Notes under the pieces: generated by a model
The model's input: only the letters and a program-made list of their open reading frames with translations
The model's database searches: none
What the model was told of the DNA's origin: nothing
Position numbers and translations under genes: made by a program
From: Sacculina carcini
Taxonomy: Eukaryota; Arthropoda; Thecostraca; Sacculinidae
NCBI GenBank assembly: GCA_916048095.2
Contig: OU696570.1
Span: forward strand, 5,881,518 to 5,945,517
Direction of reading: 5' to 3'
Length of the DNA stretch: 64,000 nucleotides
Part shown: one piece after another, positions 40,227 through 52,667 of the stretch
How the letters are laid out: each line of letters opens with the position of its first letter
Position numbering within the stretch: position 1 is the first letter of the stretch

Positions 40227-41859
40227 TAGGGGTGTCAGAAAATTAACCTAAAAATAAGAAAAAAGAACTTTATTTTCGAGGAAAAAAAACCTAAAAATCA
40301 GAAAAAAGTAACTTTATTTTCGAGAAAAAATAACCTACAAATCATAAAAAAGTAACTTTATCTTCGAGAAAAGGTAACCTAAAAAGTAACCTAAAATAAC
40401 CTATGAGTTTTAATGTTATTATCACTTTTGTATCCCTTTATCACATGTTAATCCCTTTATCACATGTTTATCGCGCCTTTGCTCATTAGTGCGCTATATG
40501 AAATACACGGTTTATTTGTTGTTTGTTTGTGAACATAAAATGTAACCTAATAACCTATAAAAAGTAACCTAAAAATAACCTAACGTTCGTAAAAATAACC
40601 TACTTCAAAAAAGGTCAATTTCTGTTTGCAATTCTGAAGGAGGAACATACACCAGTCCTTCTTTACTATCCTCTTTCCGAGTTGGTACTATTTTTCCACT
40701 CTCTCTCCGATCTGGTACCATTTTTACAACAAAGCACCAAAAGTGACTTAGTAGTATTCGGCTAGCATCGCAAAAAGGAGCATAGCCATCAAAATGCAAT
40801 ATAAAGTGGAAAGCTAATACAAAAGTGAAATACACTAATTGCAAATGTAAATACTTTTAGTAATGGCCACAATAATGTTATTTATATTGTTTCAATGTAA
40901 CTTTATCAAATAGCGCGTAATACGGGTTGACGCTAAATGTGTAAGGATTCAAGAACATTATATTTTGAAAATTTGATTTAACGAATTTCTTCCAGTCCCT
41001 CGCCTCCTGCAAAGGCAGCACATTACATTAGAACGCTAAACCTAACCTAACCTGAAATATATGAAAAATATAGAAACGTTTTTGTGGGTTTTTGATAGAT
41101 TTTATATAAATTAGCATTTTTAATGTTCTTGAATCCTTACACATTTAGCCTAGACACGTACTACGGCGTGTATATTAGTGTGAGCGTAAACACTGCATGT
41201 GTGAATGACTCCCGTCCTCCCATATGTAGCACCCTGTGCTCACAGTCTTATAAATGTCAAACATGGGAAAATGGCGCTATCTCACGCCCTGAAAATCACG
41301 TGATAATTCCTGTTCAAGTAAATACGTACTGTCAAGTGCTACAGTGCAGTATCTGGTATAGAGAGCTCACACATCGTACTATACCACGCTCCAAACATCT
41401 CACGACACCCTCCGGTTCGTGGACATTTCCCAAAATCGAATGCCGCTATCCTGCGTACCCAAAAACGTATAAATATCGAGTAGCACAGATATTAAGGTGA
41501 ATATCAATTGCTAAATCCTAACAGCAGACATTTTTGACATTTCTTGATCTTCAGACCTAATATTCCATCTCTTTTCCTATTTTATCCTCATATATACCGT
41601 TTTTGTGCCTCTTATCTGCAAAAAGTCACCTCACTTTGTGGTAAACTTACCTAATAACAAGAAAAATAACAAAAGGCAACCTGACGATAAAATAGTAACC
41701 AAAAGCATACAAGTAACCTAACGATGAAAAAGTAACTTTTGGTAACCTAATACCCTTTTAAATAATTACCGTACACAACTTTTTCATGCAGTTTTAGGTA
41801 GCTTATGAAAAAGTGACCTTTAGGTGAAAAAGCAACTTGATTAACTTTTGGTAGCCCTA
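40227..41859 (+). mobile_element. hAT-like element, TAGGG-TGTCAAAA family, copy 2
   Basis: 1633 bp, flanked by GTAATGGC at 40219-40226 and 41860-41867 (perfect 8 bp). Same structure as copy 1, enlarged by a nested MITE at 40932-41149. A frame at 41123-41500 crosses the nested insertion boundary, so is probably not a real protein. Confidence 0.9.
40932..41149. mobile_element. MITE with perfect 29-bp inverted repeats
   Basis: 218 bp. The left repeat 40932-40960 begins GCTAAATGTGTAAGGATTCA and is exactly the reverse complement of 41121-41149. It is absent from the same position of the other family copies, which act as empty sites. Superfamily unknown. Confidence 0.88.
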
Positions 41860-45806: not shown

Positions 45807-46340
45807 CTGATGAGTTTACAGTGGAGTTACAGATGAGTTTCCTCGTGGAATAGCTGCTATATTCGGTATACAAGTTTTAAACGTTAACCTTTATGAATCT
45901 GGGAATGCGCAATGATTGACAAGGTTCAGATGGAAATCGAGAGATTATATGACATAGATTATATATGTTCTACCATACTGTAATGCTAATATGAGATGTA
46001 TTTAGGCGTTCACGTGCAAAATATTAGAAAATTAAAATTCTGTTTAATTCTGATTTTCATATACGTTGGCTCAGGTCAAGTGTCAATATTTATTATAGAG
46101 TCAGTACTCCAAACAGTTTCTCGTTTCCTATCTTCTATCCAAGAAGGCAGAGCAAGGATGTAAAGATCCCCTCTCTCCAATTCTTGTGATTCAAACGGTG
46201 TTCCACAAGCATTCGGCACGAAAAAAGTAATACAGCGCATTTAATCTTGTAGATATTCGTTGAATAAGTGTGACAACTACTACCATTTGGCTACAAATAG
46301 TTCTTAGAATATATGCCTAATCTGCTATCTGTGTTCCCAG

Positions 46341-47793
46341 ATGCACGAAGCAATGGGTGCGTATACAAAAACCCAATTGGGTAATAATACAATCTACCGA
46401 CACGTTGTCAGACCAAATTACATAATAAACCAAAACCAGAGTAAAAGAATCTGGCATGTTGTAGCTCTTCTGACACCTGATCAGTCAAGTAATACTGAAG
46501 ACGCTCTTCACTCAGAAAATAAGGTTGAAAAAATCTTCCAAGGGCTCAGTCCAGATCTGACGTTGATGGGCATCATCGAATGGAAACAGTATTTCATTTA
46601 TGAAACTCCACCCAATATTAGCCTTGTGAAAGTTCCTGATGGATTCGGTCAATGTAGTACACGAACATGGATTGCTGAGAACATGGTGCTCACCAGTCAG
46701 GACATTGTCATTACTGACCGCTACTATATGCTAGAGCAGGTGAGAAACGGTGTGCCGATATATAAAGGAAGAACAACAGCAATCACAATGTCACCATCCG
46801 GCATTTGGAAAGTCACACATGACGACAATAACCTGGGACGATACGAATACCACTCAAGTCAGCCATCAGATTCGTTAGAAAACGTTTTTGCCTGGAAAAG
46901 ATATGACATTTTGAGAAATCAGTATGACATAACCACCGAATTCTCTTTACATTGCGAGTCAACACGCACCACAAGCGAGCAATGTGACAATAGAACATGC
47001 AACAAATACGCATGCATCACCTTCGACTCATCGCATTATCGCTGTTTATGTCCTTATCAGTTCATCGACGAGCACTGCACACATGAAAATAGATGTGGCC
47101 AGCCACAAGCACTACTCAACGGCAGCATGCACGGAGTTTTCGCCCAGTCAGCACTGTACACCTGTCACTGGGGTTTCAAGCTAAAGGATACCTCTATTTC
47201 GTCATCGGGATGGAGGGCGGATGTAGCGCGCAGTTTTTGTAGCGGTCTCAAGTGGTTCCCGAGCCCACAATGTATACCGGTTGAAGACGAACATTTCGAA
47301 GATCCGTGTATAGCAACATGCGACTTTACCGAGGACTTTTGCGGGTATCCCAATACCGGTATCGGCGAAAAATTCGGCATTGAGAAAAGATTCGTACTGA
47401 GGAAAAAGAACAGAATGTCGTATGCAGTCCTGGCAACAAACAACTCCAAAGTCTCGGACATGATATATATGCAAAGGCTGTATATGTTGACGCAAAACGG
47501 TTGCATTCGTTTACAAGCGAAAATCCAAGGAAACTCAGCTGTATATTTGAACAATAAACATGTGAAACTGGGACGTTTTACAGCATGGAAGAACAATACG
47601 TTCCAATCGCTCAGCGTTGCGATTCAGGGCGGAGACCTGAGACTGTTTTTAAAGGCAGTGGTGCAGGGCAGAATGAGTAGTGTCAGTATACGTCACGTGT
47701 GTGTCAGCCAGCTCATGTGCGAAAAACTGGACGCCATCTTCGATTCAAGAATCGCATCAACTGATGTCAACGAGAAAAATTTTGCAACACCAA
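46341..47793 (+). CDS. Ectodomain exon 1: N-domain, EGF, CCP, MAM
   Basis: The acceptor is TGTTCCCAG|ATG; the ATG is read as internal Met rather than a start, because the paralogous exon aligns through this point. Domains by residue from that Met: N-domain about 75-190; EGF C215-C246; CCP C252-C311; MAM from C327 to about 460. Donor A|GTGAGT, phase 1. Several N-x-S/T sites are present, as expected of an extracellular protein. Confidence 0.85.
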
Positions 47794-50700
47794 GTGAGTG
47801 TCTAAGTAGGAATTCAATTTAACTTATTTCAGTGGATTTTCAACAATAATTTAAGTACAAATTTTTAATTCCATCAAAAATATGCACTCCTCTTTAGAGT
47901 AATCGGCCGCGGTAACAAAAAAGTTACCGCCCGGGGCGGTAACTTTTTACGCCCCTCTCACAACGTATAAGGAGTCAAAAATGTAATCGATCAGTTGTCG
48001 TCAGTTGTGTAATCGATCAGTCGAAATATCCTAAATGAGCCAACATTTTTAACACTGAGAAATTCAATAAATTATATTGTTGAATCAAATGATATGCCAG
48101 ATTACTAGGAACGAAAAAAAACAGAATTCAGATTGATGAAAACACATTTGTACTACTGACCACATGTCCTCACAGGTACTACTGACAACACTACTGACCA
48201 CATCTAACAGGGACCCACCGTTTTGCGCTATCCCGTGAAGTCAACGTAAGCTAAATAGGCTCCGCCCACCGGATTAACCCAGGCGCGGCGAGAGGGATGG
48301 GGCTCCGCTCAGTGTGGTAAGAAAGAGTTTGGGAGCCGTCATTGCAGAGCATGAGTGCAACCCTTCAATTTCGCTGCGCGTTGCTTAGAATTTAGTGAAT
48401 TTCAAGACCAAAAGTAGCCTAGATTGTTCTTGTCGTTTTGACATGACCGTTCGAGCCTTTTTCTAAACATGACTCTTTGACGTGTTTTAGACAGTCTGGA
48501 AAATATAAATATATGCTTATTGATTTAATTGGAGTGTTAATAAAACCCTAGACATTCATTTCTTCACTTCGAATTAGAAATATGCTGGTTTAGCACGATT
48601 TTATGTACTGGGATTCCAATGTTCTCCAATGTACTAATTCAAAAATTACGTTCCGACAAATAACAACTTTTCAAAGATGATTAAGGCTTTTCTAGTGTGC
48701 AATTTTTAATATTTTTGAATTATATCTATCTATTTCGATTCTTGTCTCGCCGACAAAACAATATGAAATATACCTAAGTAACATTTATTATTGCAATATT
48801 ACTTTTTGAAAGTTATATTTATCAAAGCTAATCAACGCACTGTTCAAATATTATTTTTGACAAATGTCTTTTCGTTGTTAGCTTAGGTTAGCTTGGTTAT
48901 GTTAGGTTAGGTTAGGTTGGGTTGGGTTGGGTTGGTAAGGTTAGGTTAGGTTGGGTTGGTTAGGCTAGGCTGGGTTGGGTTGGTGAGGTTAGGTTGGGCT
49001 GGTTAGGTTAGGTGGGGTTGGGTTGGTTGAGTTAGGTTAGGTTAGTTACACTTTCCGCCGTTAGAGAGCGCCAGTATCGCATTGAACAGTGCCTGTTAGC
49101 TCCGCCTCCATTTTTTTAACTCACTTTGGAGCGATGCGCAAATAGGGTAGTATTTGGTATTTCACATAAATGGTGATGCTCATAGCCACCTATACACAAC
49201 GTCTAACACATGCTGAAATCCAACGACAAACGTCACTTGATAATGACAGTTTAAATTAGTATGTTAACATGAGTATTCCCGTTGTAGTCAAAAGTGAACA
49301 CATGCTACAAATTCCACCCTAGAATTATTCTAATCGATATATACATTTATCATATTGGCTGCCCTCTTTCTATGTTGTAACAAGCTTTCATTACTGTCGT
49401 ATGTCGTAACTTGTTGTTGCAGATCCCTTCATTTTCCTACATATGCCTCCATTGAAAACTGCTGTGGTCACTACCGGACAACTATTAGTAAGTTTGTCAT
49501 AAAACTGATTATTTTGATGCTAGGAGTTAACATCCATACCCAACTAAGCAACTCTTGAAATAATGATAGTGAAATTTTTCCAGCTAATTGACGATAGGTT
49601 GAAAGTTGTGACATTGAATATATTTAGCAAATGTATCACAATATTCATGTAATTGATATAAAAATAGCCACATTTTAGACATGCTCAAAAACAGATACAG
49701 TTGAAACTTGAAGTGGAGCAAAGAAAACTAAATCATTTAAACTTTAAGCGGTACATTCTATATATGAATAATTTTCATCATCATAATTCAAACCGTCTTT
49801 GTTGTATGCCTTGAATCAACACCTGACACTACTCGGGAGGGCGCTAAAAAGCGCACATGAAGAAAAATTAATTGTAGTTCTGAGAGGTCCGACACATACC
49901 ATTCTAACACATGTACCGTACCTGAAATGATTCATAGTTATATAGGTTCAATGGGCATTTATCTCAATATATTCTTCAATGGATTCCTCCTTACCGTCGT
50001 TGAATTAGATCAGGGGCGGGCAACCTCCGGCTCGAGAAAGGCCTAGCGTCCGGCACACAACCCTGCTATGTTTTATTATTGCAATCAGACCCGCATACCT
50101 CCCATTAAAAGTAGAGAATAAATTCCAATATATCTGAAGTTTAAAAAAAATTGATCTACTTTTACATTAAATTATTATTATTATTGTCACTATTATATTT
50201 AGTAGTAGTAGTAGTCTGGGATTTCATTTTTCACTCCGGCCCACGACCTCCTTCCAAGAGTCTCATCTGGCCCTCACTCTGAAAAGGTTGCCCGCCCCTG
50301 ACTTATATCTATGGAAACACCGTAATACACCTAATGCTGTTGTAGAAGCCATCCTGCCACGATTCGGCTTTTAAGATGAACGAATCCAACTGATTAAATC
50401 TAAAAATAACTCATGCCAGGTTCACCTGAGTTGAAAATAGTCTGCCCCGTCAACACTACATATCAATTGCTCTGCGACCAAACCAGATGAATCGAGATGT
50501 GTATGTTGTACTTGGCTGTTCATGTTTTTTTCAGCTGCATGGCTCTGTGGGCGGATACACTTTGCTGCCACGCCAGCTCAGCACAATACCAGTTTATAGA
50601 CACAACACTCGACCAGAATATCACCTAGTAAAAAACCTGCACGTATACCCGCAACCGTGGTGTGTGATCAGGCATGCAAAAGGAAACCAGGTCACTGAGA

Positions 50701-52554
50701 AAGAACTGTTGGCATTCGTTAACGCTCAGAACTCGCTGGCTTATGGTTTTGGCGATAGCGGACCAAGAAGCGTAGTTTATTGGTACACGCAAGACATCAA
50801 CAATCGACCACTGAAAGCTCCCATCACGGTGATCAAAGTCGATTCGGCCATATCAGAATGTCATTCGCAGCAATTAATTGTGACAGGATCATCAAACGAA
50901 AGACTGAATGGACATTACAACCTCGCCACATATCCCACAGATGGCCGAATATACTACTACAATGAATACGGCATTATAGAAGTTGATGACTCTAGCTACT
51001 GGTATATTTCTCCCATTGGCACATTTCCTCCTACGTTCTTATATCGATCTTCACAGCCGGCTGAAAGAGTGGAGCACGTTCTTAGCTGGCAACGGAATAA
51101 CAACGAATCGGAGGCAAACGCTGATCAGGACCAGCTGGAGGTTACTTGCTCCGAGGATGCAGCCAATGAAGAAACATCAGTGTGCCGTCAGCCCAGCGAG
51201 CACCACTTGCACGTACGTTACCACGGTAAGATTTACGGTCAGCAAGTATTCTCGTGCGACTTGGACTACGGATTCGACGCAGAAGAGGGGTCCGGCACTG
51301 ATCAGAAGCTGGGATTGGGTGGATGCTGGCGAGATCATTGGCTGAAATTGCCTCATTGCTTCCGCCTACGCAGACTGACCGAAAAAACCGACCTATTCCA
51401 GATGACATGTGATTTCAACAAAGATTGGTGTGGATTCACCGATCAACATCAAAGTTTCGGAAATCAATTCTTATGGAGCCGTGTGATAAAATCCAAGGAG
51501 CCACACAAAAAACTAAGAAAGCCAGCATATGATCCACTCGAATTGGACTTAGTTATCCAGATTCAACAGCAGAATCAATCTGAAAACGAAGCTGACCTTT
51601 TCTTTCCATTGATCACCACATTGCTACCAAATCAGTGTTTGCTATTTGACTTGCTCATCGACGGCCTAGCCGTGATATCACTATCCACAATCAAATCAAT
51701 CGTCTGGGACTACATCGGCAATACAAATGGAGCATGGATGACTCCGTCCATTACTCTCCCAAACGAAAGACTCGTCAGCTTGCACATGCAAGTGCTGTTC
51801 GGATCCAACTTGACTACTGTTCAAGTGGATAACGTACGAGTTAGCAGATTCAACTGCCAGCAAACAAAAGAAGAAATGGAGCGATACGACAGTACAAATA
51901 CAACAGGTGAGCTAACCGACGACGCACAACGTATCCGATAGTTGAACAAAGCTTATTATTGTATACAGGTAGACTTCATCGAACGCGAGTATAATTATGA
52001 ATGAATGATATGAATGAATGAATGATCTAAGCTCATATTGACAGGACGCAATACTTAACTCAAGTTCACTAAGCGAGGTAAACGACTATATAAATTCATC
52101 TAACCATATCATTAAATTAAAATTATCGAATAGAGAAATTATTTCAATCAAATGTCTATGGTTCCTTCTCATAATACGCGAACTCGATAAATAATTATTG
52201 CGATGATCACTGCAACCAATCAGTCCAACAAGCCTTGAATAACGTCGAGTGGTGCACAGAGGCTGATCAGCAGCTCAATAAAAGTACATTCCGCCCGGAT
52301 TGAAAATTTTTGTCGCAAGATAGTAAATCCGCATACACATACTTATATGCTGTTTGACAGAGCACGTCGATGACAAAAGCCAGCCCGGAGTCACGGACAA
52401 TGAAAACCTCCCCAAGGAGACCATGCCAACGCAGACTCTGCCGTTGACTCTGATTATGGCAGCGATAGTGTGTGTGGTGGTGGCGGCAGGTGTGTGTCTA
52501 GTGTACTTGGACTGTGTGGCGACTGGCGGCCGCAACAGACAAACACGCCGATAG
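46341..52554 (+). CDS. Type I membrane protein with duplicated CCP-MAM ectodomain (3' part of gene)
   Basis: Probable cell-surface receptor or adhesion protein. Exons: 46341-47793, 49423-49487, 50535-51906, 52361-52554; phases 0-1, 1-0, 0-1, 1 fit throughout and give about 1027 residues before the stop. Two paralogous units: an N-terminal domain with the shared pattern Y-x-SSQP-x4-E-x-V-x2-W-x-R, a CCP/sushi-like cysteine module, and a MAM module opening CDF-x3-(F/W)CGF/Y. Unit 1 also has an EGF module between the first two. The last exon has a ~20-residue hydrophobic segment (LTLIMAAIVCVVVAAGVCLV) and a short basic tail. The 5' exon(s) with the signal peptide were not found; the acceptor before 46341 is phase 0. 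I do not recognise the protein by name. Ligand unknown. Confidence 0.75.
47909..47948. other. Overlapping hairpins just inside the intron
   Basis: GCGGTAAC-A6-GTTACCGC (47909-47930) and AAAAAGTTACCGCC-CGG-GGCGGTAACTTTTT (about 47918-47948) share an arm, so the two stems are mutually exclusive. It lies about 115 bases after the exon 1 donor. Confidence 0.6.
48893..49048 (+). repeat. Degenerate TTAGG/TTGGG tract
   Basis: About 155 bp made of 5-bp units TTAGG and TTGGG with occasional variants, like an interstitial remnant of the arthropod telomere repeat TTAGG. It lies in the intron between ectodomain exon 1 and the micro-exon. Confidence 0.8.
49423..49487 (+). CDS. 65-bp micro-exon bridging the two ectodomain units
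   Basis: Preceded by TTGTTGTTGCAG and followed by GTAAGT, both strong splice signals. Entering in phase 1 and leaving in phase 0, it gives an open 22-residue linker (N-PFIFLHMPPLKTAVVTTGQ-LL) and is what allows exon 46341-47793 to be read into exon 50535-51906. Prediction from splice signals and frame only; no homology support. Confidence 0.55.
50011..50300. mobile_element. hAT MITE (CAGGGGCGGGCAAC ends)
   Basis: 290 bp. Inverted ends CAGGGGCGGGCAACCT / AGGTTGCCCGCCCCTG (one mismatch). Flanks AATTAGAT and ACTTATAT agree at 6 of 8 positions. It lies in the intron just before ectodomain exon 2. Confidence 0.8.
50535..51906 (+). CDS. Ectodomain exon 2: N-domain, CCP-like, MAM (no EGF)
   Basis: Aligns with 46341-47793 from the first residues (LHGSVGGYT versus MHEAMGAYT; VYRHNTRPEY versus IYRHVVRPNY). 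The acceptor is a T-run plus CAG at 50534, phase 0; the donor G|GTGAGC, phase 1, same phases as its paralogue. The EGF segment is missing; the CCP-like cysteines and MAM start TCDFNKDWCGF are kept. An upstream ATG at 50487 would give MNRDVYVVLGCSCFF, which resembles a signal peptide, so an alternative first exon here cannot be excluded. Confidence 0.83.
52361..52554 (+). CDS. Transmembrane and C-terminal exon
   Basis: The acceptor is TTTGACAG|AG, phase 1, accepting either ectodomain exon. A short acidic/Pro-rich stalk, then a ~22-residue hydrophobic helix, then YLDCVATGGRNRQTRR and a TAG stop. The cytoplasmic tail is very short, with no signalling motif. Confidence 0.8.
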
Positions 52555-52661: not shown

Positions 52662-52667
52662 AATAAA
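52662..52667 (+). terminator. Poly(A) signal of the CCP-MAM gene
   Basis: AATAAA 108 bases after the stop codon. Confidence 0.6.

Follow-up and report, generated by a model that had tools for sequence, protein, structure and literature searches.

The DNA analysed here (the window) is a stretch of 64,000 nucleotides, C1:5881518-5945517, within a genome of 264 Mb in 43 contigs, and its gene content identifies it as animal DNA. The window contains a nuclear-receptor ligand-binding exon at 17.1 kb and, downstream of the locus described below, PRPF6 on the minus strand; the PRPF6 exon at 58.7-59.1 kb matches human PRPF6 at E 2e-63, and a minus-strand ORF at 53.6-54.0 kb, for which 0 Pfam families were matched, resembles by eye a further exon of the same gene. 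An Rfam scan of the window at the gathering threshold gave 0 matches.

The locus comprises two large plus-strand exons, designated A and B, each of which encodes one ectodomain unit. Exon A (46341..47793; 1453 nt, 484 codons) has an open frame that runs from phase 0 to phase 1, with good splice sites and the donor CAA|GTGAGT, and exon B (50535..51906; 1372 nt, 457 codons) likewise runs from phase 0 to phase 1 and ends at the donor CAG|GTGAGC, a string of nine bases that is identical in the paralogues c5739 and c5545. Between the two lies a proposed micro-exon of 65 nt (49423..49487, plus strand), which leads from phase 1 to phase 0 and after A encodes NPFIFLHMPPLKTAVVTTGQLL. The best-scoring transmembrane (TM) terminal exon 3′ of B (52361..52554, plus strand) has a phase-1 acceptor and specifies a short stalk, one transmembrane helix, a short tail and a stop, with a poly-A signal, AATAAA, on its 3′ side at 52662. 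A tentative 5′ exon (45996..46079, plus strand), situated 261 bp before A and the strongest candidate near it, contains an ATG followed by the very hydrophobic core MYLGVHVQNIRKLKFCLILIFIYVGSGQ and ends in phase 0 at a weak donor, CAA|GTGTCA, with a score of 0.7. The ORF at 41099-41500 was rejected as an upstream exon, as this sequence is CCP-like by eye but belongs to a high-copy interspersed repeat of at least 150 copies (every one of the 150 candidates scored, out of 1905, matched).

A frame and splice-site check confirmed the exon borders, sizes and phases that had been proposed in a prior sequence-only reading of this DNA, and several other claims of that reading also stood. A and B are paralogous along their length, as established by an end-to-end alignment with about 20% identity (E 3e-14), and A cannot be spliced directly to B, the direct join producing 24 stops of which the first falls at codon 534. 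The frame running through A, the micro-exon, B and the TM exon is unbroken, amounting with the 5′ exon to 1056 codons with a single terminal stop, and both large exons fit the TM exon, the A-TM and B-TM splices being open throughout (the direct-join and single-exon models likewise include the tentative 5′ exon). With stretches containing long CA/TG runs skipped in the sampling, no other stop-free stretch of 484 codons was encountered on the plus strand in either flank of the gene (0/267 and 0/85) or on the minus strand (0/418).

The same reading had named the ectodomain CCP-MAM, a designation for which Pfam offered no support in A, in B or in nine family members. No Pfam family was matched by A or B at E<=1, and a scan of nine members including A and B returned only two single weak matches, to DUF6501 (E 0.17) and amfpi-1 (E 0.85); the CCP/sushi model was unmatched in A, B and the nine-unit set. 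The MAM model PF00629 gave eight matches on contigs C29 and C9 and none at the A/B locus. Those matches are arranged four per single exon, at C29:1407382-1409529 and C9:105648-107444 (minus strand), within frames that stay open for 808 and 948 residues, respectively. A CDF..D.CG motif, picked by eye, is presumably the sole MAM-like feature of the unit. An EGF-like stretch in the units produced weak matches only (E 0.1-0.6), and a profile of nine units compared with the PDB yielded four weak EGF matches and one unrelated weak match. AlphaFold models of A alone (pLDDT 30.6) and of B with A as the alignment (pLDDT 32.3) were too poor for a fold search.

A and B represent two of at least 13 related units, all of which reside in a 1.6-Mb stretch of C1 (4.32-5.93 Mb), namely c4321, c4396, c4536, c4790, c4853, c5020, c5263, c5407, c5545, c5739, c5759, A and B; A, B and three paralogues were used as queries against the same genome, and the unit counts are lower bounds. 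The A/B locus (window 46341-52554) is positioned at the edge of this cluster. An extra weak match to B on C36 (E 1.3e-4) covers part of a unit. Unit c5759 is truncated at its 5′ end, and the frame of c5407 (C1:5406700-5408102), which is 84-95% identical to c5545, is broken in two, this unit being likely a recent pseudogene. Units c4790 and c4853 sit in 9-kb blocks (C1:4787001-4796000 and C1:4850601-4859600) that are 99.9% identical and would stem either from a duplication in the very recent past or from a duplicate copy made by the assembly.

The exon phases of A and B recur throughout this family. A phase-0 start at the first aligned residue was found in A, B and all seven paralogues read at the DNA level, an AG being present directly before the codon of that residue in c5739, c5545, c5263, c5020, c4396, c4536 and c4790, and c4321 fits such a start by translation alone. 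Near the frame end, 7/7 paralogues possess a phase-1 donor scoring above 4, two of them also having a donor of another phase. Nineteen columns, occupied by Cys, Trp, Gly, Tyr and other residues, are invariant in nine aligned units including A and B. The paralogues read to the end carry a threonine-rich stalk after the last domain, very long in most, which A and B are without; we take this stalk to be a variable feature and its absence to be no ground for excluding A and B from the clustered family, to which both almost certainly belong. The family probably consists of type-I membrane proteins in which the entire folded ectodomain is encoded on one exon leading from phase 0 to phase 1. As the stand-alone paralogues show the same phases, the apparent incompatibility of A with B is a family trait, and one that probably did not evolve for the A/B locus.

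Estimates of dN/dS for four paralogue pairs were 0.45, 0.57, 0.60 and 1.55, the last based on only 14 changes, and clear diversifying selection was not found by this measure in these pairs. A and B form a pair (94/92) in a tree of the units, with very long branches and a long-branch warning; when either A or B was omitted, the other joined neither of the two clades that were left and kept its long branch. The top match of B is A, at 61.6 bits as compared to 43.1 for the next, and A matches c4536 (68.9), c5739 (67.0), c5263 (64.7) and c4790 (62.0), all slightly above B. The split between A and B appears to be about as old as the family and not the outcome of a recent exon duplication.

The TM exons of the cluster present a different picture from the ectodomains. 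When used as a query, the TM/tail exon of c5263 found itself and three others in the cluster at 57-70% identity, of which one follows c4536 by about 1 kb and the other two, assigned by position and strand only, lie downstream of c4321 and c4396 at a distance of 14-15 kb, while the ectodomains of c4536, c4321 and c4396 share only 24-26% identity with that of c5263. Some TM exons of the cluster thereby appear far more alike than the ectodomains that they would anchor. A phase-1 TM exon follows the unit in both paralogue cases that were read. No homologue of the c5263 TM exon was detected in the window at E<=10, and the TM exon of the A/B locus, used as a query in turn, matched only its own sequence and, weakly, two positions on C12 (E 0.13 and 0.68). 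For c5739, c5545, c5020, c4790, c4396 and c5759 no convincing TM exon was found in the 0.7-13.5 kb scanned for each; two candidates for c5545 resemble the frame of a retroelement, and a candidate for c5020 was weak and unconvincing.

The proposal that A and B form part of one gene gained support from scans for TM and signal exons, and we consider it likely that the two share a transcription unit, the alternative of two genes persisting at lower odds. In the interval of 2741 bp from A to B, no phase-1 TM terminal exon was detected by a scan that did recover those of c5263, c4536 and the A/B gene, nor was a phase-0 ATG signal-peptide exon detected, even at a donor score of 0 and a core hydropathy of 1.5. 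A shared transcription unit is favoured as the scans located no TM exon for A and no signal exon for B in this interval, as a strongly hydrophobic 5′ candidate precedes A, and as one TM terminal exon, followed by a poly-A signal, is found 3′ of B. The absence of these exons weighs less than it might, however, as the 5′ exons of the paralogues and, in the spans scanned, most of their TM exons also escaped detection, candidate upstream exons of the paralogues being scattered and unconvincing. With regard to the 5′ exon, and with hydrophobic-core thresholds that were chosen after the candidate at 45996-46079 was known, candidates with a core of at least 3.6 occurred in 1/182 segments of 350 bp per strand, the one on the plus strand being necessarily 45996-46079 itself, and candidates with a core of at least 3.0 in 6/182 plus-strand and 7/182 minus-strand segments.

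Under the alternative, the locus would hold two tandem genes, or a gene and a remnant, A having lost its TM exon (and being secreted or decaying) and B starting alone, perhaps at the ATG at 49443 inside the micro-exon. The other known units are dispersed, the cluster does include broken or truncated units (c5407 and c5759), and the in-frame ATG of the micro-exon would place MPPLKTAVVTTGQLL before B, all of which fit such an arrangement. Set against this, A remains open over 484 codons, with the 19 invariant columns and good splice sites, the scans of the interval returned neither a TM exon after A nor a signal-peptide exon before B, and the micro-exon ATG would give a poor signal peptide, its best 11-residue hydropathy being 0.72. 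We regard the presence of two separate genes, or of a gene and a remnant, as improbable.

The role ascribed to the micro-exon as the element that holds the frame is possible, its phase, frame and position all being suitable, but its occurrence, with a chance rate of 11-25%, is not above chance. The micro-exon is single-copy and unique in the genome. Scored with hand-set weight tables that were not trained on this species, its acceptor ranks in the top 4.2% of AGs in the window and its donor in the top 2.8% of GTs, values that are moderate, such that the strong splice signals previously attributed to it were overstated. It is nonetheless the sole open exon in the A-B intron that leads from phase 1 to phase 0 with both sites scoring at least as well. 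An equal or better exon of this kind arose in 106/1000 order-2 Markov simulations of the intron (11%), and was present in 34/135 plus-strand and 23/135 minus-strand 2741-bp stretches of the window, these stretches overlapping and a few on the plus strand necessarily containing the micro-exon itself. This evidence lifts the odds of a bridge between A and B a few-fold only, and we judge the chances that the micro-exon is used in splicing to be even.

The chance rate of 11-25% for such an exon also favours an explanation in which the micro-exon is a chance match and A and B are alternative exons between shared 5′ and TM exons, the gene thus producing two single-unit receptors that resemble the paralogues. 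The A-TM and B-TM splices each keep the frame, and the paralogues look like single-unit proteins. The sections of PMC3228551 that deal with mutually exclusive exons name identical phases, homology and similar length as criteria, of which A and B display the first two; in one test described there a length difference of up to 20 residues is accepted, and the 27 codons by which A and B differ make the length criterion borderline. The same sections name tandem gene duplicates as false positives. Moreover, there is no sign of a mechanism that would prevent joint inclusion of A and B, and at 20% identity neither exon comes close to being a recent copy of the other. Alternative use of A or B, with two single-unit products, is in our assessment an unlikely explanation, albeit a credible one.

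A splice order of A, micro-exon, B and TM exon is modestly favoured over a choice between A and B. According to this order, two old family members would have been placed in one transcription unit, with the signal (5′) exon and the TM (3′) exon common to both, and the likeliest mRNA would consist of the 5′ exon, A, the micro-exon, B and the TM exon. The predicted product would be a receptor in which two ectodomain units follow one another, joined by a 22-residue linker derived from the micro-exon. The frames and phases of the exons, the phases of the family, the TM and signal scans and the uniqueness of the micro-exon support such a serial arrangement, while the chance-level occurrence of the micro-exon, the weak 5′ donor and the fact that no other unit is known to pair with a neighbour weaken it, and we place its likelihood at just short of even. 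That the micro-exon might furthermore switch valency, its inclusion yielding a two-headed A+B receptor and its skipping only in-frame A-TM or B-TM, is a distinctly doubtful proposition. Should the bridge be real, exons of fixed asymmetric phase that cannot be joined head to tail would have been concatenated by the gain of one small exon.

Irrespective of how A and B are joined, the window occupies the edge of a cluster of receptors that went unrecognised by Pfam in the nine units scanned, and the pattern of this cluster, in which the ectodomains of some members have diverged and their TM/tail region is conserved, is worth testing for a function in recognition or immunity. A and B resemble the other 11 units of C1 in having one large ectodomain exon from phase 0 to phase 1, where this was read, and in their invariant columns, and differ in being adjacent and stalkless, with a TM exon that is not recognisably that of the family. 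Literature searches for duplicated exons, allorecognition clusters and micro-exons yielded no paper that was recognised as describing a matching system. With the mutually exclusive exons of Dscam type the locus shares homologous neighbours and identical asymmetric phases, the similarity in length being borderline, whereas A and B are about 1.4 kb long, very diverged and different in length by 27 codons, and their alternative use is only putative. In clustered protocadherins large ectodomain exons are able to share a downstream exon; the dispersed units of C1 differ from these in showing no evidence of promoters of their own or of an exon used in common, while the A/B locus is similar to them in its large ectodomain exons and in the downstream exon that these may share.
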